Below, piece by piece: positions 16,937 through 26,527 of a stretch of 64,000 nt of DNA (position 1 is its first letter; each line of letters begins with the position of its first letter). The position numbers and the translations under genes are program-made. Under the pieces are notes generated by a model. That model saw only the letters and a list, made by a program, of their open reading frames with translations, ran no database searches and was not told the origin of the DNA. This DNA is from Amycolatopsis sp. FDAARGOS 1241 (GTDB lineage Bacteria; Actinomycetota; Actinomycetes; Mycobacteriales; Pseudonocardiaceae): assembly GCF_016889705.1 (NCBI RefSeq), contig NZ_CP069526.1:8460001-8524000 (forward strand), written 5' to 3'.

Positions 16937-18282
16937 GGCCGGAAGCCGACGCGTTCCGCGTCGGCCGGTGTGCGGAACCAGACTTCGGCCACCATGCGCG
17001 GGAATTGGGGCGACTCGTCGGTGCAGTAGCGCAGCGCGGTGACGCTCGCTTTGACCGTAAAGGCGTCGGAGGGGCGGCCGCCGCCCGGACGGGGCATCGC
17101 GGAGCCCGGGCCGAACGGGCCGGGCGGTACGGAGTCTTCGGGAGTCTGGCGGGCCGGCGGGGGTTCGGGCGCCGCCATGGCGGCGGCGACCTGGTTGGGT
17201 TGCACCGACGGCTCGAACAACGATCCACTTTGGGCACCGGTGAGCTCCGGGTCGCGGCGTTCGACCGAACGCATCGACGGCTCGATCGGCCGCGGAGGCT
17301 CGAACCCGCCTCGCGGGGATTCGCGCGGCTGGCGCTTGGGCAGGGCCCCCGGCTCCAGCGAGTCCTCGACTGAGTCCTCTGTGGACTCCACAGACTCCGT
17401 GGACCCGACGGACTCCGCCGCGGCGCCCGGCGGCGAGGTGGGCGTGAGGTGCTCGGTGGCCTCGTGCTCTTCGAGGTAGTCGCCGGTTCCTTCGTGGTCG
17501 CCGGGTTCTTCGAAGGGTGAGCGCTCCTTGGTGAACCAGTCCGATTCGGCCGTTTCCGGCCGGGCCTCCGGTTCCGGGGCGGCCGCGGGCTTCTGGAACA
17601 GCGACACCGGTTCGCCGGTAGCGCCGAAGGACGCCTCGGGCTCGAGCTTGCTTTCGATCGACGCCGGCTCCGGCGCACGGTGGTAGCCGCTGCCGTGGTC
17701 CTCTTCGTCCGGTTCGAACGCGGGCTCCGGCGCGGCGTGGTAACCACTGCCGGAATCGCGGGCGACGGGGTTCAGGTATTCGGTCGCGGCCGCGCGGTAC
17801 GCGGCGCCACTGTCCACGGAGGACGGCGCGGCGGCCGGCTCGAAGTCGTCGGCGACGGGCTCCGGGTCCGGTGCCGTCCGGTACTCCGCCTCGTACTCGG
17901 CCTCGGGCTCGAACCCGGGCGACGGCGTCGCGCTGATCAGCTCGGTCGGGGCGTGCTCACGCTCGTCGCGGGCCCACGACGGGGTGAGATCCGGCTCGGC
18001 GAAGTCGTGGTCGTCCGAAGACACCGAGGACACCGAAGACACCGAAGTCGTCTCGGACCCCGAGAACTCCGGTGTGACCGGCGCCGGCACCGCGGTGCCG
18101 GTCGCGGCCAGCGCCGCCGCGTTGGCCGGCGTGCGCGCGTTCTCGGCGTGCGCCGCGGCCAGCGCTTCCTCCAGCTCGCGGACCCGCTTGCGCGCCGGCA
18201 ACACGAGGACCAACCAGGCCACGAGCGCACCGACGAAGAAAGCCAGCAGACTCCACAGCCAGACCTGTCCGAAAATGGACAT
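16927..18282 (-). CDS. Membrane-anchored protein with disordered region and C-terminal sunset domain
   Basis: 451 residues from ATG 18282 (AGGA upstream). One N-terminal helix (about 5-30, MSIFGQVWLW start), a short coiled coil (VRELEEALAAAHAE), then some 350 residues of acidic, Pro/Ser-rich low complexity that contain two GSGYHxAPEP repeats and SVSSVSS runs. The last ~40 residues (SVTALRYCTDESPQFPRMVA, then EVWFRTPADAERVGFRP) fit the sunset domain found at the end of many actinobacterial proteins. The usual histidine of that domain is Cys here. Function unknown; a longer frame that fuses it to the prenyl synthase is an artefact. Confidence 0.75.
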   Translation of the reverse strand: MSIFGQVWLWSLLAFFVGALVAWLVLVLPARKRVRELEEALAAAHAENARTPANAAALAATGTAVPAPVTPEFSGSETTSVSSVSSVSSDDHDFAEPDLTPSWARDEREHAPTELISATPSPGFEPEAEYEAEYRTAPDPEPVADDFEPAAAPSSVDSGAAYRAAATEYLNPVARDSGSGYHAAPEPAFEPDEEDHGSGYHRAPEPASIESKLEPEASFGATGEPVSLFQKPAAAPEPEARPETAESDWFTKERSPFEEPGDHEGTGDYLEEHEATEHLTPTSPPGAAAESVGSTESVESTEDSVEDSLEPGALPKRQPRESPRGGFEPPRPIEPSMRSVERRDPELTGAQSGSLFEPSVQPNQVAAAMAAPEPPPARQTPEDSVPPGPFGPGSAMPRPGGGRPSDAFTVKASVTALRYCTDESPQFPRMVAEVWFRTPADAERVGFRPLL

Positions 18283-18296
18283 CTTTCCTGCCCCTT

Positions 18297-19367
18297 TTAG
18301 TGCGTTCGCGCGACCAGGTAGTCGGCGACCGACTCGCAGGCATCGCGCGCGGGGGAAGCGGGCAGCGCTGCGAGCTCGGCACGTGCTCGCGAAGCGTAGT
18401 CGGAAAGGGTGACGCGCGCGCGTTCGAGTCCGTGAGAACTTCGCAAGAGCTCGAGGGCCTCCTCGACCAGAGCGTCCTCGGTGATGGGGCCGGCGAGCAG
18501 CTCCACGAGCCGCGGGTCGGTGGCCGGGTCGGCCAGCGCGTACAGCATGGGCAGCGTGCGGACGCCTTCGCGCAGGTCCGTGCCCTGCACCTTGCCCAGC
18601 TCGTCGGAGGGCGACGCGATGTCGATGATGTCGTCCGAGATCTGGAACGCCGTGCCGATGAGCTCCCCGAAGCGGCACAGCGCCTGGATGTACTCCTCGG
18701 GCGCGCCGGACATCATGCCGCCGAACCGCCCGGACGTCGCGATCAGCGAGCCGGTCTTCTGCGCGATGACCGTGAGGTAATGCTCGACGGGGTCGTCGCC
18801 GGGGCCCGGGCCGACCGTCTCGCGCATCTGCCCGGTCACGAGCTCGCCGAACGTCTCGGCGATGATGCGCGCCGCGTCGGTGCCGAGGTCTGCGACCAGG
18901 CGGGAGGCGTGGGCGAAGAGGAAGTCGCCGGTCAGGATCGCGACGGTGTTGTCCCAGCGCGCGTTGACGCTCTCCGCGCCGCGCCGCATGGTCGCCTCGT
19001 CCATCACGTCGTCGTGGTACAGCGTCGCCAGGTGCACCAGCTCCACCGCGGCGGCCGCGATGAGCACGTGCTCTCCCTGCTTGGGCCCGAACTGCGCCGA
19101 CAGCAGCGTGAACAGGGGACGGAAACGTTTGCCCCCCGCCTCGACCAGGTGCAACGCCGCGTCGTGCACCGCCTGCACATCGCTCTTCACGACGTCCCGC
19201 AGCATCGCCTCGACGTCCGCCAGCCCCCCGGCAACCGCCCGCAGCAGCTCCTCGTCCTCGATCTGCAGCCCGACGGTCGCGCGCAGGTCCTCGACAGCGC
19301 CATCCCGCGCAGCGCCATCCCGCGCAGCGGCGGCTCCCGCCCCCGGGGGTGGTGAAGACACAGACAC
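18297..19367 (-). CDS. Long-chain polyprenyl diphosphate synthase (menaquinone side chain)
   Basis: 356 residues from GTG 19367, with GGAG five bases upstream. First aspartate-rich motif DDVMD at 119-123 and second DDIID at 245-249, with GGKRFRPL near 78-85. It condenses isopentenyl diphosphate onto an allylic primer. Small residues before the first motif imply a long product such as the octa- or nonaprenyl tail of menaquinone. Homologous to mycobacterial GrcC1, which I recall as a neighbour of menaquinone genes. It ends 14 bases before the sunset-domain gene, so the two are probably co-transcribed. Confidence 0.92.
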   Translation of the reverse strand: MSVSSPPPGAGAAAARDGAARDGAVEDLRATVGLQIEDEELLRAVAGGLADVEAMLRDVVKSDVQAVHDAALHLVEAGGKRFRPLFTLLSAQFGPKQGEHVLIAAAAVELVHLATLYHDDVMDEATMRRGAESVNARWDNTVAILTGDFLFAHASRLVADLGTDAARIIAETFGELVTGQMRETVGPGPGDDPVEHYLTVIAQKTGSLIATSGRFGGMMSGAPEEYIQALCRFGELIGTAFQISDDIIDIASPSDELGKVQGTDLREGVRTLPMLYALADPATDPRLVELLAGPITEDALVEEALELLRSSHGLERARVTLSDYASRARAELAALPASPARDACESVADYLVARTH

Positions 19368-19682
19368 GTCGGCTCCGCTCTCTCATGCGCCGGCAGGTTT
19401 CCGGTCTTCAGAGTAGTGGCTACCCCTGGGCCGCCGTTTAACCGCTGTCCAGGGGAAACGGTGACGAACATGACATCGGGCGCCGACGGACGTTCTCCCA
19501 CCGACCCGGACACCTCGGGAACCACGAACGGGTTGAACCACCCGCACGGACGGGTGATCGACGCTCAGCAGCGCAACGGGCGAAACGGGCGCGCGGATAT
19601 TCACTCAGTGGGAGATCACCGGCGCGCTCCGGGCAGCGGGGAGAGCGGCGCGGTCGAGAGAACGGCACAGCGGAGGACAAGT
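19368..19682. other. Divergent intergenic region
   Basis: 315 bases between two divergent starts. A frame in phase with the secreted-protein gene extends leftwards through it but lacks a ribosome site and a sensible N-terminus. I see no RNA gene. Promoters for both genes must lie here; I cannot place them. Confidence 0.4.
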
Positions 19683-20333
19683 ATGCGCAGGAACAGCAGG
19701 CGGGCGGGGCTCGTCGCGGCGGTCGTGGTGGCCGGGGGCGTGGTCACGGGCGGGATGGCGCACGCGGACACGCCGGCCGGGGTGGCGGACCTCGGTGAAG
19801 CGAGTTTCACCAAGGGCGCGACCACGGTGACGGTGCCGACGCTGGCACCGTGCGCGGTGGAGGGGCCGACGAGCGCGTCGGCGGAGTCCGTGACCAAGCC
19901 GGGGCTCACGTTCGGCGGCGGGACGTCGTCGTGCACGACCACCGTCGTGGATCCGGACAACGACACGACCACCACCAAATCGACGGCCACCGGGAAGAAT
20001 TTCGAGCTCTCGGCCCTCGTGAGCGCCGGCGGGCCGCGCATCCGCCTGGCGAGCTACACCGTCACGTGCGACGCGGCGCAGCGGCAGACGAACGCGAACT
20101 GGACGTTCAGCGGCCTCGCGGGCATCACCGGCCTGCCGTCACCGATGCCGGCGAACTACACCAAGCCCATCACCAAAGCCAACGGCACCGTGCTGGCCAA
20201 CGCGGTCTTCAACACCCAGACCCTCCCCGGCGACGGCAGCATCAGCCTCACCATGCTGCGCATCGACTTCGCGCCGGCATCCGGGATCACCGGCGCTGTC
20301 ACCGTCGGTCGCACTTCGTGCTCCCCTGTGTAG
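19683..20333 (+). CDS. Secreted protein of unknown function
   Basis: 216 residues from ATG 19683, chosen because GGAGGA lies five bases upstream and a clear signal peptide follows (MRRNSRR, hydrophobic core, AHA cleavage near 31). The mature part is Thr/Ser/Ala-rich with beta-strand character, four cysteines (LAPCAVEG, TSSCTTTV, TVTCDAA, TSCSPV) and a DPDNDTTTTK stretch. It resembles the loosely defined secreted choice-of-anchor-type proteins of actinobacteria, but I do not assign it. The stop is followed after four bases by the hairpin element starting at 20338. Confidence 0.7.
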   Translation: MRRNSRRAGLVAAVVVAGGVVTGGMAHADTPAGVADLGEASFTKGATTVTVPTLAPCAVEGPTSASAESVTKPGLTFGGGTSSCTTTVVDPDNDTTTTKSTATGKNFELSALVSAGGPRIRLASYTVTCDAAQRQTNANWTFSGLAGITGLPSPMPANYTKPITKANGTVLANAVFNTQTLPGDGSISLTMLRIDFAPASGITGAVTVGRTSCSPV

Positions 20334-20457
20334 TTTTGCCTCGGCTTCGCCGAGGCGGCGAGATCGCCTTTGAGCCGGCTTCTTCCGCACGATGTGTTCG
20401 GGCTGGGGGCCGAACACATCGTGCGGAAAAACCGGCGCGATTTCGCGGGGTGGTTCA
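20334..20457 (+). repeat. Hairpin repeat element, copy 1 (3'-end element)
   Basis: This ~124-base element begins directly at the stop codon of the secreted-protein gene. It holds a palindrome GCCTCGGCTTCGCCGAGGC (20338-20356), GGCGAGATCGCC, a 19-bp hairpin (20383-20428) and ends with ACCGGCGCGATTTCGCGGGG. An inverted copy lies at 23278-23398 behind nuoN, nearly identical outside the loop. The terminal block is the same as part of the 65-bp unit of the adjoining tandem array. Confidence 0.85.
20383..20428 (+). terminator. 19-bp stem terminator inside hairpin element copy 1
   Basis: TTCCGCACGATGTGTTCGG (20383-20401) pairs perfectly with 20410-20428 around an eight-base loop and is followed by AA. 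In the other copy one stem pair is changed on both sides (G-C here, T-A there), a compensatory change that shows the structure is conserved. The symmetric stem could end transcription from either side. Confidence 0.75.
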
Positions 20458-20530
20458 GCCCTTTGCCCGTCAGCAGGGCAGCCGCAAGGCCGGACCCTGC
20501 AGCAACGGCGCCAGCTCGGCCGAGGGCCGG

Positions 20531-21415
20531 GCAGCGTCGCGCGGTCCAGAAACGACAAGGCCTCGCGGGGTGGCGCACCGGCTTTCTCGCCGGCGCCACG
20601 CCGGCCAGAAACCGGCGCGACTCGGCGAAGTAACTCAGCGCCGCTGTCGCCTCAACAAAAGCACGCGAGCCACAAGCGGGCACGGCCTCGCCGTGTGGTT
20701 CAGCAGTCTCGTCACCTCAACAGCGCCACGCGGAACTAAAAAACCGCGCGATTCGGCGAAGTAACTCAGCGCCGCTGCCACCTCAACAGCGTCACGCACG
20801 CCAGAAACCGATACGACCCTGGAGTGGCTCAGCGGCGCTGCCGCCTCAACAGCGTCACGCGGGCAGAAATCGGCGCGACTCGGCGAAGTCGCTTAAGGGC
20901 ACTACCACCTCAACAAAAGCACACAAACCACAAGCGGGCACGGCCTCACCGTGGTCGTTCAGCAACATCGCCACCTCACCAGCGCCACGCGGACCAAAAA
21001 CCGGCACGACCTGGCGAAGTCGCTCAGCGCGCTGTCACCTCAAACAGCGTCACACACGCCAGAAACCGATACGACCCTGGAGTGGCTCAGCGGCCCGGCC
21101 ACCTCAACAGCGCCACGTGATCCAGAAGCCGGCGCGATCTGGCGGAGTGGTTGAGTGGCCCTGCCACCTCGGCAAGATCACGCGGACCAAATGCGGGCGC
21201 GGCCTCGCGGGGGTGGTTCAGGGGCCTTGCCACGTCGACAGCGCCACGCGCAATAAAAACCAGCGCGACCTTCGGAGTGGCGCAGCAGCGCTGCCATCTC
21301 AGCGGCCGCGCCGGGCCACGAGCCGGCGCGGCCTTGCCGGGTGGGCAGAGGCCTGTACCTCAGCGGCGTCGTGCGGACCAGAAGCCGGCGCGGGTCGCTC
21401 GGGGCGCGTCGGCGG
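20531..21415. repeat. Tandem array of degenerate ~65-bp units
   Basis: Thirteen to fourteen units of 63-66 bases are recognisable from recurring GCCACGCGGACCAGAAACCG, GGCGCGACCTCGCGGAGTGG and TGCCACCTCAACAGC blocks. Unit starts: 20531, 20595, 20661, 20725, 20791, 20854, 20919, 20984, 21049, 21112, 21177, 21241, then less clear. Units 20595-20853 and 20854-21111 are a higher-order duplication: unit 1 matches 5, 2 matches 6, 3 matches 7, 4 matches 8 better than their neighbours. The period is not a multiple of three and frames crossing it are not genes. The 1,084-base gap 20334-21417 holds only this and the hairpin element. Confidence 0.85.
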
Positions 21416-21417
21416 TT

Positions 21418-22125
21418 TCACGTCTGCAGGGCGGTGCGCAGGGCCGGATCCTGAAGCAGCGGAAGCAGGTCGGGGTCCAGCACCCGCGAAGCGCCCGGCA
21501 GCGAGGCCTGGCGCAGCATCGCGTGCAGCACGTCGGCGTGGGGTTGGTCCTGCAGGGTCCACACGGCGCGGCGGCGGGCGTCCGCGGAACCGAGCCACCA
21601 GTGCGTCACCAGGGCCGCCACCTGTTCCACCGCGGCGGCGCGCCCGCGTTCCAGCAGGGGCCGGTTCAGGCCGCACACCTCGATCGTCGCGCGGCCCTTG
21701 TCGGTCAGTGCGCGGTAGGTGCCGATGGACAGCACGAGGAACAGGTGGTCCAGCGGGTCGTCGACGGTGGGGTCGATGAGTAGCGGCTCCCCGGCGTTGT
21801 CGACCGGGAACCGGTCGCGCTTGTGGTGGCTGTTGCAGAACTCGCACGCCAGCAAGTGGTTCAGCCAGTCGAACGCCCGGCGCGGGTTGCGGGCCACCGG
21901 TTCGAAGTGGTCCACAGTGGACCCGAGGCCGTCGCCGCAGTACATGCAGTAGCCGCGGCCCGAGGCCATCACGCCGAGCTGGGCGCGGATCGCCCGCCTG
22001 GCCCCGCGGGCGGAAGTCCACAAGCGACGCGCGGTTTTCGTGTCCCCGTGCGGGATACGCGCCGTCAACCGCAAGAGCTCCGAAGACACCGAGGCAGGCA
22101 GCGCCACGCGGCGCAGCGCGATCAC
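21418..22125 (-). CDS. HNH endonuclease, PtuB-like, of a two-gene ATPase/nuclease system
   Basis: 235 residues from a GTG at 22125 that overlaps the ATPase stop by four bases. CMYC at 60-63, DHF at 72-74, N89, and CEFCN with K102 give an HNH/ββα-metal core held by two CxxC zinc pairs; the pattern CxYC-DHFxPxxR-DWxNxLLxCxxCN matches the nuclease partner (PtuB) of Septu and retron Ec78-type defence systems. The C-terminal ~120 residues are helical. It probably cleaves nucleic acid when the ATPase partner is triggered, for example by phage. A longer start at 22203 would overlap the ATPase by 82 bases and is rejected. The stop abuts the 65-bp repeat array. Confidence 0.75.
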   Translation of the reverse strand: MIALRRVALPASVSSELLRLTARIPHGDTKTARRLWTSARGARRAIRAQLGVMASGRGYCMYCGDGLGSTVDHFEPVARNPRRAFDWLNHLLACEFCNSHHKRDRFPVDNAGEPLLIDPTVDDPLDHLFLVLSIGTYRALTDKGRATIEVCGLNRPLLERGRAAAVEQVAALVTHWWLGSADARRRAVWTLQDQPHADVLHAMLRQASLPGASRVLDPDLLPLLQDPALRTALQT

Positions 22126-23201
22126 CGCTCGTCGAAGTTCCGCGTCACGTCCTCGACCCGGCTGGGCGGCGAGCTGCTCAGCCGCCGGCGCAGCTGCTCC
22201 CACTCACGCACGCCGGCGGCGTCGGCCTGGCCCGTCGCTACGAGCAGCTCCAGCTCCGCCAGGTGCTCGCGCAGCTCGACGGCCCGCGGTGAGTAGGGGC
22301 TGTCCAGCCCGAACAGGTCCGACAGCACGGCGTCGTCACCGCTGCCGTAGACCACGCGCCGGTACAGCTCGTCGGACACCACCCGCGGCGGCTCCTGCTC
22401 GTCCGGCCCTGGCAGCCGGATCAGCCCGCCCGGGTCGGCCGCCTGGCACACGTACGGGCTGTGCGTGCTCACCACGAACTGGATCCGCGGGAAGTGCGCC
22501 TTGAGCCACGGCCCGATCCGCTTCTGCCACGACACGTGCAGGTGCGCGTCGACCTCGTCGATCAGCACCACACCCGGCGCGTCCACCCCGAGCCCGGCCT
22601 CCGCGAGCTGCCGCACGAGGTCGACGACCAGAGCCGTGACGGTGCGGTACCCGTCGCTCATCTCGCGCAGCGGGAAGCGGTCGCCGCGGTAGGACACCCA
22701 CAGGCCGTCGGAGTCGACGTCGCGCACGCGGTAGCCGTCGGGCAGCAAGCCGTCGCCGAGCAGGCCCAGCACGGAATCCTTCAGCTCCCGCGCACCCGCC
22801 TTGCCCTCCAGCGCGCGCAGGTGCTGGTTGATCAGCCACGCGACGCCCTCGGCCAGCGACGCGTCCTCGCTGAACAGGCTCGCCACGCGCGCGAACTCGC
22901 CGCGCATCAGGGACTGCGCCTCCGGCGCGCCCCCGGCCAGCCGCCGGAACGGACCGTAGCCGGCGCAGAACGCAGGCCCCTCGCCCACCACCTCGACGTC
23001 GATCGAGCTGTCCTCACCGACCAGATCGTCGGCGAACGGCGGCCGCACGATCGCCTGCGCCAGCGCGCGCAGGAACGTCGTCTTGCCCGACCCGTTGCGC
23101 CCGGCGAGCACGATCCAGCCCGGTCCGGGCAGCCGCAGGTCCACCGTGCGCGGACCGCGGAACCCCAGCACGTCCGTGATCCGCACTCGCTCGATGACCA
23201 T
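22122..23201 (-). CDS. ABC/AAA-type ATPase, PtuA-like, partner of the HNH nuclease
   Basis: 359 residues. RecF/SMC-like N-terminus (ITDVLGFRGPRTVDLRL) with P-loop GRNGSGKT at 34-41, signature-like MSDGYRT at 181-187, Walker B VVLIDEVDAHLH at 211-222 and H-loop STHSPY at 245-250. There is no TOPRIM domain, so it is not an OLD nuclease. The C-terminal DLFGLDSPYSPRAVELREHL stretch is like that of ATPases paired with HNH nucleases. It is taken as sensor and regulator of the coupled nuclease. Weak AGGGC site before the ATG. Alternative role: DNA repair ATPase, but the nuclease coupling favours defence. Confidence 0.78.
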   Translation of the reverse strand: MVIERVRITDVLGFRGPRTVDLRLPGPGWIVLAGRNGSGKTTFLRALAQAIVRPPFADDLVGEDSSIDVEVVGEGPAFCAGYGPFRRLAGGAPEAQSLMRGEFARVASLFSEDASLAEGVAWLINQHLRALEGKAGARELKDSVLGLLGDGLLPDGYRVRDVDSDGLWVSYRGDRFPLREMSDGYRTVTALVVDLVRQLAEAGLGVDAPGVVLIDEVDAHLHVSWQKRIGPWLKAHFPRIQFVVSTHSPYVCQAADPGGLIRLPGPDEQEPPRVVSDELYRRVVYGSGDDAVLSDLFGLDSPYSPRAVELREHLAELELLVATGQADAAGVREWEQLRRRLSSSPPSRVEDVTRNFDER

Positions 23202-23277
23202 GCCCTGAGCTTATCGGCCGGACACGACGAAGGCTGCCGCGAAATCCTCCGCAACAGCCTCCCTCACCTACTGACCA

Positions 23278-23398
23278 CCCCACGAGATCGCGCCGGTTTT
23301 TTTCCTCACGATGTGTTCGGGCCCCCCGGGGTCGAGCACATCGTGAGGAAGAAGCCGGCTCAAAGGCGATCTCGCCGCCTCGGCGAAGCCGAGGCCGA
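23278..23398 (-). repeat. Hairpin repeat element, copy 2 (behind nuoN)
   Basis: Inverted relative to the copy at 20334 but in the same orientation relative to its own gene: it starts right after the nuoN stop, with the same GCCTCGGCTTCGCCGAGGC palindrome, then GGCGAGATCGCCTTTGAGCC, then a long stem (TTCCTCACGATGTGCTCG paired with CGAACACATCGTGAGGAA, one G-T pair) and CCGGCGCGATCTCGTGGGG. It probably ends the nuo transcript. Between it and the ATPase start an imperfect hairpin (AGGCTG/CAGCCT, 23231-23260) is also seen. Confidence 0.85.
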
Positions 23399-24973
23399 CT
23401 ACCCAGCGAAGCCGCCTGAAGCCGCCCAGTTCAAGGCGAAGGTCGGCACCAGGCCCAGCACCAGCGTGACCACCACGCCGAGCGTGATGGCCGCCGTGGT
23501 GAAGCCGCCCGGGATGGCGACCGTCGGGCCGTCGGCGGCCGGCTCGGAGAAGTACATCAGCACGATCACGCGCAGGTAGAAGAACGCCGCCACCGCGCTG
23601 AACACCAGGGCGACCACCACCAGCGGGGCCATGCCGTCGGACAGCGCCGCGGAGAACACCACGAACTTGCCCACGAAGCCGCTCGTCAGCGGGATACCGG
23701 CGAGAGCCAGCAGGAGGAACGTGAACACGCCCGCGAGCACCGGCGAGCGCTTCGCCAGGCCCGCCCACGCCGACAGGTGCGTGGCCTCCCCGCTGCCGTC
23801 CCGCACGAGGCTGATCACGCCGAACGCCGCCAGCGTGGTGAAGCCGTAGGCGAGCAGGTAGAACAGCGTGCTCGACAGGCCGTCTTCGGTCATCGCGATC
23901 GCGCCGACGAGCAGGAAGCCCGCGTGGGCGATCGAGGAGTACGCGATCATGCGCTTCACGTCGGTCTGCGTGAGCCCGAGGATCGCGCCGATCGCCATCG
24001 AGATGATCGCCACGGCCCACAGCACGCCGCGCCACTCCCAGCTGGTCGAGGAGAACGCGACGGACAGCACGCGCAGGATCGCGCCGAACGCCGCGACCTT
24101 CGTGCACGCGGCCATGAAGCCCGTCACCGGCGTCGGGGCGCCCTGGTAGACGTCCGGCGTCCAGGTGTGGAACGGGCCGACCGAGCCCTTGAACAGCAGG
24201 CCGACCACGAGCAGGCCGAGGCCGGCGAACAGCAGCGTGTCCGAGCGGTCCGAGCCGGCGGCGGCGTTGGCGATGTCAGCGAGCTTCACGGAGTTCGCGT
24301 AGCCGTAGAGCAGCGCGAGGCCGTAGAGGAAGAACGCCGAGGAGAACGCGCCCAGCAGGAAGTACTTCACCGCCGACTCCTGCGAGATGAGCCGGCGCCG
24401 CCGGGCCAGGCCGCACATGAGGTACAGCGGCAGGCTCAGCACCTCGAGGGCGATGAACATCGTCAGCAGGTCGTTGGCCGCGGTGAAGGCCATCATGCCG
24501 CCGAGCGCGAACAGCGTCAGCGGGAACACCTCGGTCTGCGACCTCGTCGCGGTGGCGACCTGCGCGCGGTCCTGCACGGTACCGGGGCTGATCGCGGCCT
24601 GCGCCACGAACGCGCCACCCGGCTCGACCTTGCGGTCGGCGATGAGGAACACCGCGCCGAGCGCCAGCAGGAGCAGCGTGCCCCAGAGGAACAGCGACGG
24701 CCGGTCCACCGAGATGGCTCCCGCGAACGTGGTCACACCCGCCTTCGGCGAGTTGTCCGTCGCGTAGAACACCAGCGCCGCACCGGACGCGACGATCGCG
24801 AGCAGGCTCATGAACACCTGCAGGCCCCAGCGCAGGTTCCTGGGCGCGAAGGCCTCCACCAGCACGCTGACGCACGCGACGCCGAAGACGATCAGCAGCG
24901 GCAGCACGGCTGCGTAGTCGATCGAGGGCGTCGGCAGCTGCGCCGGCGCCTGGGTGAGGAACATGTCGAGCAC
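23399..24973 (-). CDS. nuoN: NADH-quinone oxidoreductase subunit N
   Basis: 524 residues, about 14 membrane helices; antiporter-like proton channel subunit at the middle of the complex I membrane arm. The proton-antiporter core includes LYLMCGLARRRRLISQESAV, the lysine in GLLFKGSVGPFHTWTPDVYQ and MIAYSSIAHAGFLLVGA. GTG start at 24973 with GGAGG ten bases upstream, four bases after nuoM; an ATG three codons in is possible. Last gene of the nuo operon. Confidence 0.95.
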   Translation of the reverse strand: MLDMFLTQAPAQLPTPSIDYAAVLPLLIVFGVACVSVLVEAFAPRNLRWGLQVFMSLLAIVASGAALVFYATDNSPKAGVTTFAGAISVDRPSLFLWGTLLLLALGAVFLIADRKVEPGGAFVAQAAISPGTVQDRAQVATATRSQTEVFPLTLFALGGMMAFTAANDLLTMFIALEVLSLPLYLMCGLARRRRLISQESAVKYFLLGAFSSAFFLYGLALLYGYANSVKLADIANAAAGSDRSDTLLFAGLGLLVVGLLFKGSVGPFHTWTPDVYQGAPTPVTGFMAACTKVAAFGAILRVLSVAFSSTSWEWRGVLWAVAIISMAIGAILGLTQTDVKRMIAYSSIAHAGFLLVGAIAMTEDGLSSTLFYLLAYGFTTLAAFGVISLVRDGSGEATHLSAWAGLAKRSPVLAGVFTFLLLALAGIPLTSGFVGKFVVFSAALSDGMAPLVVVALVFSAVAAFFYLRVIVLMYFSEPAADGPTVAIPGGFTTAAITLGVVVTLVLGLVPTFALNWAASGGFAG

Positions 24974-24976
24974 GGG

Positions 24977-26527
24977 TTACTTGCCTCCCTGCACGGCAGA
25001 CAGCGTCGCCTGCACCGACGGGGTGATCGTGTCGAGCAGCGGCTTGGGGTAGAAGCCCAGGCCGATGATGAGGAAAACCAGCGGGGCCAGGATCGCGATC
25101 TCCTTGCCGCCGAGGTCCTTGATGGCCTTCTTGGCGCCGAGTTCCGGCGCCATCGCGGTGCCCGGGCCGCCGCCGACGCCGATGAGCGCGTCGCCGCGCA
25201 CCGGGCCTTGCATGATCCGCTGGTAGAGCCACAGCACGTACGCCGCGGCGAGCACCATGCCGACCGTCGCGATGATCGCGTACACCGGCTGCGTCACGAA
25301 GGAGCCCAGCAGCACCAGGAACTCGCTGATGAACGAGTTGGTGCCCGGCAGCGACAGCGCCGAGAGGCCGGCGATCAGCAGCATCCCGCCGAGCAGCGGG
25401 GTCACCTTCGCCATGCCGCCGTAGTCGGAGATCCGTGTGGACCCACCGCGCATCACGATCAAGCCGATCACCACGATCAGCATCCCGGTCGAGAGGCTGT
25501 GGTTCAGCATGTACGACACCGAACCGACCATCGCCTGCTCGTTGAAGGTGAAGATGCCGAGCGCGATGAACCCGAAGTGGGCGATCGAGACGTAGGCGAT
25601 GAACCGCTTCATGTCCGACTGCCCCGCGGCGAGGATCGAGCCGTAGAGCACGCCGATCACCGACAGCACCAGCACCAGCGGCGCCAGCGTCTTGCTCGCT
25701 TCGGGGAACATCGGCAGGCAGTAGCGCAGGAAGCCGAACGTGCCGACCTTGTCGAGCACACCGACCAGCAGCACCGCGACCCCGATCGGGGCCTGGCCCG
25801 CGGCGTCCGGGAGCCAGGTGTGGAACGGCACCAGCGGCGCCTTGATCGCGAACGCGAGGAAGAAGCCGAGGAACAGCCAGATCTGCGTGCCCGTCGGCGC
25901 GTCCCGCACCACGGTGACCAAGGTGGCCCAGTCGAACGTGCCGTGGCCCAGCTTGTCCGACGCGAGCGAGTACGCGCCGATCGCCGAGGCCAGCATGATC
26001 AGGCCGCCGAGGAACGAGTACAGGAAGAACTTCACCGCCGCGTACTGCCGGTTCGCGCCGCCGTAGCCGCCGATCAGGAAGTACATCGGGATCAGCATGA
26101 TCTCGAACAGCACGTAGAAGAGGAACACGTCGGTCGCCGCGAAGACGCCGATCGTGATCGCCTCCTGCAGCAGGATCAGCGACAGGAACCCGCCGGCGCT
26201 GCGGCCGGCCGGGAGCTTGTCGGTGAGCCCGAGCGCGCCCACCACGATCGGCACGAGCAGGGCGATCACCGCGATCATGATCAGCGAGATGCCGTCGGTG
26301 CCGAACGCGATGTGGATGCCGAAGGTGGGGATCCAGTCCATCGAGGTGGCCTGCTGGATCCGTGCGCCCGAGGGCGAGTAGCTCGCCCAGAACGGGATGA
26401 TCAGCAGGAACTCCGCAATGGACACGACCAGCGCGGTCGCGATCGCGGCCCGGTCGTTCCCCTTCAGGAACGCCAGCACCAGCGAGCCGGCCAGCGGCAG
26501 CAGGATGAGCGCCAGAAGCCAAGTCAT
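24977..26527 (-). CDS. nuoM: NADH-quinone oxidoreductase subunit M
   Basis: 516 residues, about 14 helices, proton-pumping antiporter-like subunit. Conserved glutamate in FYVLFEIMLIPMYFLIGGYG and lysines in FAIKAPLVPFHTWLPDAAGQ and MKRFIAYVSIAHFGFIALG are present. Starts one base after the nuoL stop, so translation is coupled. Confidence 0.96.
   Translation of the reverse strand: MTWLLALILLPLAGSLVLAFLKGNDRAAIATALVVSIAEFLLIIPFWASYSPSGARIQQATSMDWIPTFGIHIAFGTDGISLIMIAVIALLVPIVVGALGLTDKLPAGRSAGGFLSLILLQEAITIGVFAATDVFLFYVLFEIMLIPMYFLIGGYGGANRQYAAVKFFLYSFLGGLIMLASAIGAYSLASDKLGHGTFDWATLVTVVRDAPTGTQIWLFLGFFLAFAIKAPLVPFHTWLPDAAGQAPIGVAVLLVGVLDKVGTFGFLRYCLPMFPEASKTLAPLVLVLSVIGVLYGSILAAGQSDMKRFIAYVSIAHFGFIALGIFTFNEQAMVGSVSYMLNHSLSTGMLIVVIGLIVMRGGSTRISDYGGMAKVTPLLGGMLLIAGLSALSLPGTNSFISEFLVLLGSFVTQPVYAIIATVGMVLAAAYVLWLYQRIMQGPVRGDALIGVGGGPGTAMAPELGAKKAIKDLGGKEIAILAPLVFLIIGLGFYPKPLLDTITPSVQATLSAVQGGK

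Follow-up and report, generated by a model that had tools for sequence, protein, structure and literature searches.

Does the pair of genes lying beside core genes in the chromosome of Amycolatopsis sp. FDAARGOS 1241 encode a phage-defense system and, if so, of which kind? The pair is located in a 64,000-nucleotide (nt) stretch of contig NZ_CP069526.1 (positions 8,460,001 to 8,524,000; hereafter the window, to which our coordinates refer), for which an initial annotation had described a minus-strand operon of an ATPase and an HNH nuclease resembling the Septu (PtuAB) system. Both open reading frames, the motifs named for them and a four-base overlap between the genes were found as described there. 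The upstream gene, ptuA (22122..23201), encodes a 359-residue ABC-type (AAA_21) ATPase, identified as a compact PtuA by profile and fold comparison, and the downstream gene, ptuB (21418..22125), encodes a 235-residue HNH nuclease whose GTG start overlaps the ptuA stop in the sequence GTGA. An alternative upstream GTG in the open reading frame listing would lengthen the nuclease to 261 residues; we favor the shorter form because the four-base overlap of the ptuB start with the ptuA stop is present in 24/24 copies compared (start codons GTG in 21, ATG in two and TTG in one). PtuA has a Walker A motif, GRNGSGKT, at residues 34-41 (23079..23102, containing K40), of which residues 34-40 are invariant and T41 is nearly so in 22 aligned relatives, as well as MSDGYRT at residues 181-187, a Walker B motif GVVLIDEVDAHLH (D215, E216) and the H-loop residue H247. 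In PtuB, the first zinc cysteine pair C60-M-Y-C63 (21937..21948), D72-H73-F74 of the HNH motif (21904..21912), N89 and C94-E-F-C97-N98 (21832..21846) are all intact, and the four cysteines, D72, H73 and N98 are invariant in 50/50 alignment rows.

Judged by its sequence, the pair is a standalone Septu of a known kind, already recognizable by PADLOC profiles, and the compactness of its PtuA is its sole distinctive feature. The best PADLOC models were PDLC00269 (PtuA, E-value 5e-143) and PDLC00317 (PtuB, 1e-95), followed for both proteins by models named mREase_IV (1.3e-100 for the ATPase and 2.5e-55 for the nuclease), and the Pfam matches above cut-off include AAA_21 for the ATPase (1.5e-22) and HNH for the nuclease (22.1 bits, cut-off 21.4). 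The predicted models of the two proteins have the PtuA and PtuB folds, which together with the profiles and the conserved catalytic residues supports the Septu-like assignment. No housekeeping family outscored PtuA or PtuB in the three profile libraries scanned, and the ATPase is thus not to be placed by them in a housekeeping family with a non-nuclease partner. The protein nearest to PtuA is from Amycolatopsis sp. NPDC051903 (97% identity). One detail of the initial annotation has to be reversed, namely that the nuclease is unusually compact: 118/120 PtuB homologs listed have 226-264 residues and the PADLOC PtuB model has 244 positions, so that it is the ATPase that is the short partner.

The two genes are associated far beyond chance. 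In a survey of 80 Amycolatopsis genomes a strong ptuA match was present in 25, with seven others having a weak match only, and a strong ptuB match was present in exactly the same 25, while genome G043 has ptuB fragments only. When the best 80 of 454 ptuA loci from a scan of named genomes were inspected, all of them in what we take to be actinobacteria from their record titles, 78 had a PtuB frame (E-value 1.8e-47 or better), which in 76/80 begins between -20 and +60 nt from the ptuA stop. The adjacency of the genes in one operon, kept across relatives, is that of Septu. Across a wider sample of 297 genomes of the family, matches at 1e-60 or better were found in 54 genomes and 12/46 genera. Among plasmids, 94 of 72,556 records matched the ptuA query, 22 of them over at least 80% of its length; most of the 94 may be other AAA ATPases, as 93/94 are below 60% identity, and among ten plasmid matches listed, four from Streptomyces or Kitasatospora have 49-61% identity and the others 26-35%. 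The eight matches in 50,697 phage records are all partial, none reaching 80% query coverage. Two side observations were made in these surveys. Genome G076 has distant PtuB-like (1.9e-11) and PtuA-like (2.8e-6) matches close together on one strand (C1:8469153-8470123), perhaps a second type of Septu, and the locus titled Rhodococcus rhodnii NRRL B-16535 (L163) is perhaps mislabeled, its contig matching in length (287,039 nt) that of Kibdelosporangium aridum listed for P0115.

The chromosomal site of the pair, defined as the interval from nuoN to a polyprenyl synthetase gene, could be taken from 74 genomes and the window (75/80; nuoN side only in G060), the flanking genes being on different contigs or the synthetase not found in the remaining five. 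It holds ptuA in 23/75, including one carrier, G010, in which ptuA is frameshifted and split over two frames, and the ptuB fragments of G043; two further genomes (G056 and G057) have the pair outside this site. In a nuoN tree for 41 selected genomes of the 80 (the 23 site carriers, the genome with the remnant and 17 more), the distribution of ptuA at this site takes at least four changes to explain, and two sister pairs differ, with the pair present in G047 and absent from G068, and present in G070 and absent from G079. These discordances lead us to consider the pair accessory; it is not a fixture of this site in every related genome, as carriage varies between close relatives. In the latter sister pair the polyprenyl synthetase match crosses one in-frame TGA in both genomes (G070:C1:330929-331975 and G079:C18:89960-91006).

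What sets the window copy apart is the segment linking the Walker A helix to the motif FCAGYGPF, shortened here to about residues 52-78 (22968..23048) as seen in alignments that included the Escherichia coli structure 8ee4_A. The spacing from GSGK to GYGPF is 44 residues in the window and in A. saalfeldensis (L137), the smallest value of any named locus after discounting two readings of 50 (L187 and L188) that arise artefactually from a second GSGK within the segment; in the 67/80 loci where it could be measured, the spacing is 90-120 in 56 and 76 in seven, with an outlier of 196 (L161). Within Amycolatopsis, PtuA has 395 residues in an 18-genome clade, 390 in G070, and 450 and 451 in the two off-site copies, which together with the 359-residue form indicates that this segment is variable in length. 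We rejected the notion that it is a hypervariable sensor arm, since in the 18-genome clade it is less constrained than the remainder of ptuA (pooled ratio of nonsynonymous to synonymous differences, pN/pS, 0.086 vs. 0.045) without an excess of amino acid changes. No account of the compact form was found among open-access papers on Septu in Amycolatopsis or Streptomyces, on PtuA insertions or on PtuA/PtuB structures, judged by titles and abstract openings.

With a probability that we put at roughly 85%, the pair is a standalone Septu whose two proteins act together against phage. PtuA, an SMC/Rad50-like ABC ATPase, would assemble with PtuB, both proteins being needed, and a trigger during phage infection would switch the complex on by release or remodeling of PtuB, which would then cut nucleic acid, either nicked DNA or a tRNA (tRNA-Tyr, for example), and so keep the phage from multiplying, at the expense of the infected cell. 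We infer a complex that is switched on by infection because residues matching those needed in E. coli Septu (K40, D215, H73, and N89) are present, and a working phage-defense module is likewise deduced from homology. It is also conceivable that the pair derives from Septu and was domesticated for a cellular role, for example in nucleic-acid repair or in tRNA turnover under stress. The pooled ratio of nonsynonymous to synonymous substitution rates (dN/dS) in the 18-genome clade, which is lower for ptuA (0.044) than for nuoN (0.090; ptuB, 0.127), would suit such a role, as would the single chromosomal site kept in that clade and the core genes that the pair adjoins in the window. However, the two sister species without the pair, a clade member with only a remnant, a relative with a frameshifted ptuA, the 55/80 genomes of the genus that have no strong match and the close homologs on some actinobacterial plasmids all speak against domestication, and we regard it as improbable.

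Shortening could also mean that the system is decaying and that PtuA is a non-functional deletion product, as might be suspected from the approximately 100 residues that it lacks, relative to E. coli PtuA, from P-loop to signature, from the low model confidence at residues 85-114 and from the frameshift in G010. Yet the compact ptuA does not look like decay: its 359-residue length is kept in three genomes with dN/dS indicative of purifying selection (ptuA 0.132, ptuB 0.239, and nuoN 0.171, pooled and with the frameshifted G010 excluded), five further homologs (P0003-P0007) have 356-371 residues, the catalytic motifs are invariant in the 22 aligned proteins and the intermediate 395-residue form is strongly constrained as well, all of which makes decay very unlikely. 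A role as effector of a type I-A retron, an association known for PtuAB and mentioned in the initial annotation, is the least credible explanation, and we rejected it. Although the effector PtuAB of retrons Ec78/Eco7 and Ec83/Eco4 have folds very similar to those of the pair in predicted single-chain models, the genome had no match to the reverse transcriptase family RVT_1 (PF00078), a search that would pass over a reverse transcriptase invisible to this profile and whose control was positive in 3/14 known genomes; no Rfam family reached its gathering score in 18000-25000; and the NCBIfam retron Ec78 models remained far below cut-off (PtuA 107.3 of 500 bits, PtuB 27.6 of 150 bits). As there is no RVT_1 match in the genome, no retron part would be available as the switch of a standalone Septu. 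A bolder and still doubtful proposal is that the compact PtuA represents a Septu branch that has largely lost the variable arm linking P-loop and GYGPF and that would sense the trigger or gate PtuB otherwise than in E. coli; taken with a possible leaderless expression (below) and the near-core conservation of its 395-residue cousin in one Amycolatopsis clade, it would amount to a Septu in minimal form that responds to another trigger.

The region upstream of ptuA suggests that the gene has its own promoter and that its transcript is leaderless. TAAGCT, a probable -10 element (23208..23213, minus strand, 6 nt before the ATG), is located 6-7 nt before the start in 20/21 Amycolatopsis copies, the window included, and is TAAACT in the other, while the sequence upstream of it differs between clades. 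A TAnnnT element lies 5-8 nt before the start in 28/76 named loci, many of them close relatives and hence not independent, vs. 0.18% of random positions; the other 48/76 are without it. Despite the conserved -10 element, a scan for the sigma-70 consensus called no promoter upstream of ptuA.

Further upstream, in the gap between nuoN and ptuA, a palindromic element (23274..23395, strand unassigned) forms a hairpin of -73.9 kcal/mol (z -5.9), possibly the nuoN terminator; a terminator scan did not call it, finding one site vs. a mean of 1.6 in shuffles. An inverted copy, 89% alike, is located on the other side of the pair (20338-20454); in both, the outer arms are conserved and the central stem is long. 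We rejected these as terminal repeats of a mobile element because the genome contains related elements scattered elsewhere (32 BLAST matches, several of which represent the two strands of a single copy). By eye, such elements are visible in the gaps flanking the pair in G059, with like outer arms and a different inner stem, and not in those of G047 and G010; being dispersed and not visible in these gaps, they were not needed for insertion. In relatives, the gaps after nuoN (L032, L045, and L046) contain palindromes of a further type, CTCGTGAGTG...GGTTCTAACC...CACTCACGAG, which could be terminators or belong to a different dispersed repeat. A degenerate array of approximately 65-nt direct repeats (20565-21392), with seven copies in a 74-nt register, six of them 62-74% alike to the reference, lies in the gap separating ptuB from the following gene.

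The neighbors of the pair that were scanned in the window are ordinary: by Pfam, three complex I subunits, the polyprenyl synthetase and a thiamine-pyrophosphate enzyme, besides one protein without a Pfam match whose N-terminus reads by eye as secreted. A scan of the interval for defense genes covered G015, where five frames (P0243-P0247) separate nuoN from ptuA. A defense island was rejected there, as PADLOC gave weak helix-turn-helix matches of P0243 only; a Pfam scan of three of the frames identified a regulator (P0243), a PPE-like protein (P0244) and nothing for P0246.

The pair extends a structurally and biochemically studied defense family to Amycolatopsis, a genus known for antibiotic production. 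A naturally trimmed PtuA could help to tell the portion of the ATPase that senses phage from the portion that only holds the nuclease, and the nuoN-synthetase site is useful in that, at this one place, sister species have a copy, a broken copy or none.

How does the pair compare with known systems? The retron PtuA match starts only at chain residue 45-64, so that the N-terminal extension of the retron proteins is absent here, and residue 76 aligns with position 149 of 446 in PDLC00269, leaving about 73 profile positions missing before it. The ABC ATPases of PARIS (AriA) and SMC/Rad50 have a lower Z than every PtuA entry listed but one, and to our knowledge neither is partnered by an HNH nuclease of the PtuB type. 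With regard to activity, one account describes retron-Eco7 PtuA and PtuB as causing growth arrest and tRNA-Tyr depletion jointly and not singly, retron-Eco4 PtuAB as not depleting tRNA, and another E. coli Septu as acting on nicked DNA (PMC11555353). Relative to E. coli Septu (8ee4, 8ee7, 8eea, and 8sux), identity is about 20-23%, and the residues needed there, K43 and D316 of PtuA and H75 and N91 of PtuB, correspond to K40, D215, H73, and N89, respectively, a correspondence by motif, and for PtuB also by equal spacing, rather than by direct alignment to that strain. PtuA has 359 residues here vs. 465 in E. coli, and 121 residues separate the P-loop from the signature block vs. 224 in 8ee4_A, the P-loop block itself being weakly aligned. 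The host here is a soil actinobacterium, and what it carries is a two-gene Septu of a known kind, slightly unusual in that its ATPase falls about a hundred residues short of the E. coli version that has been studied.
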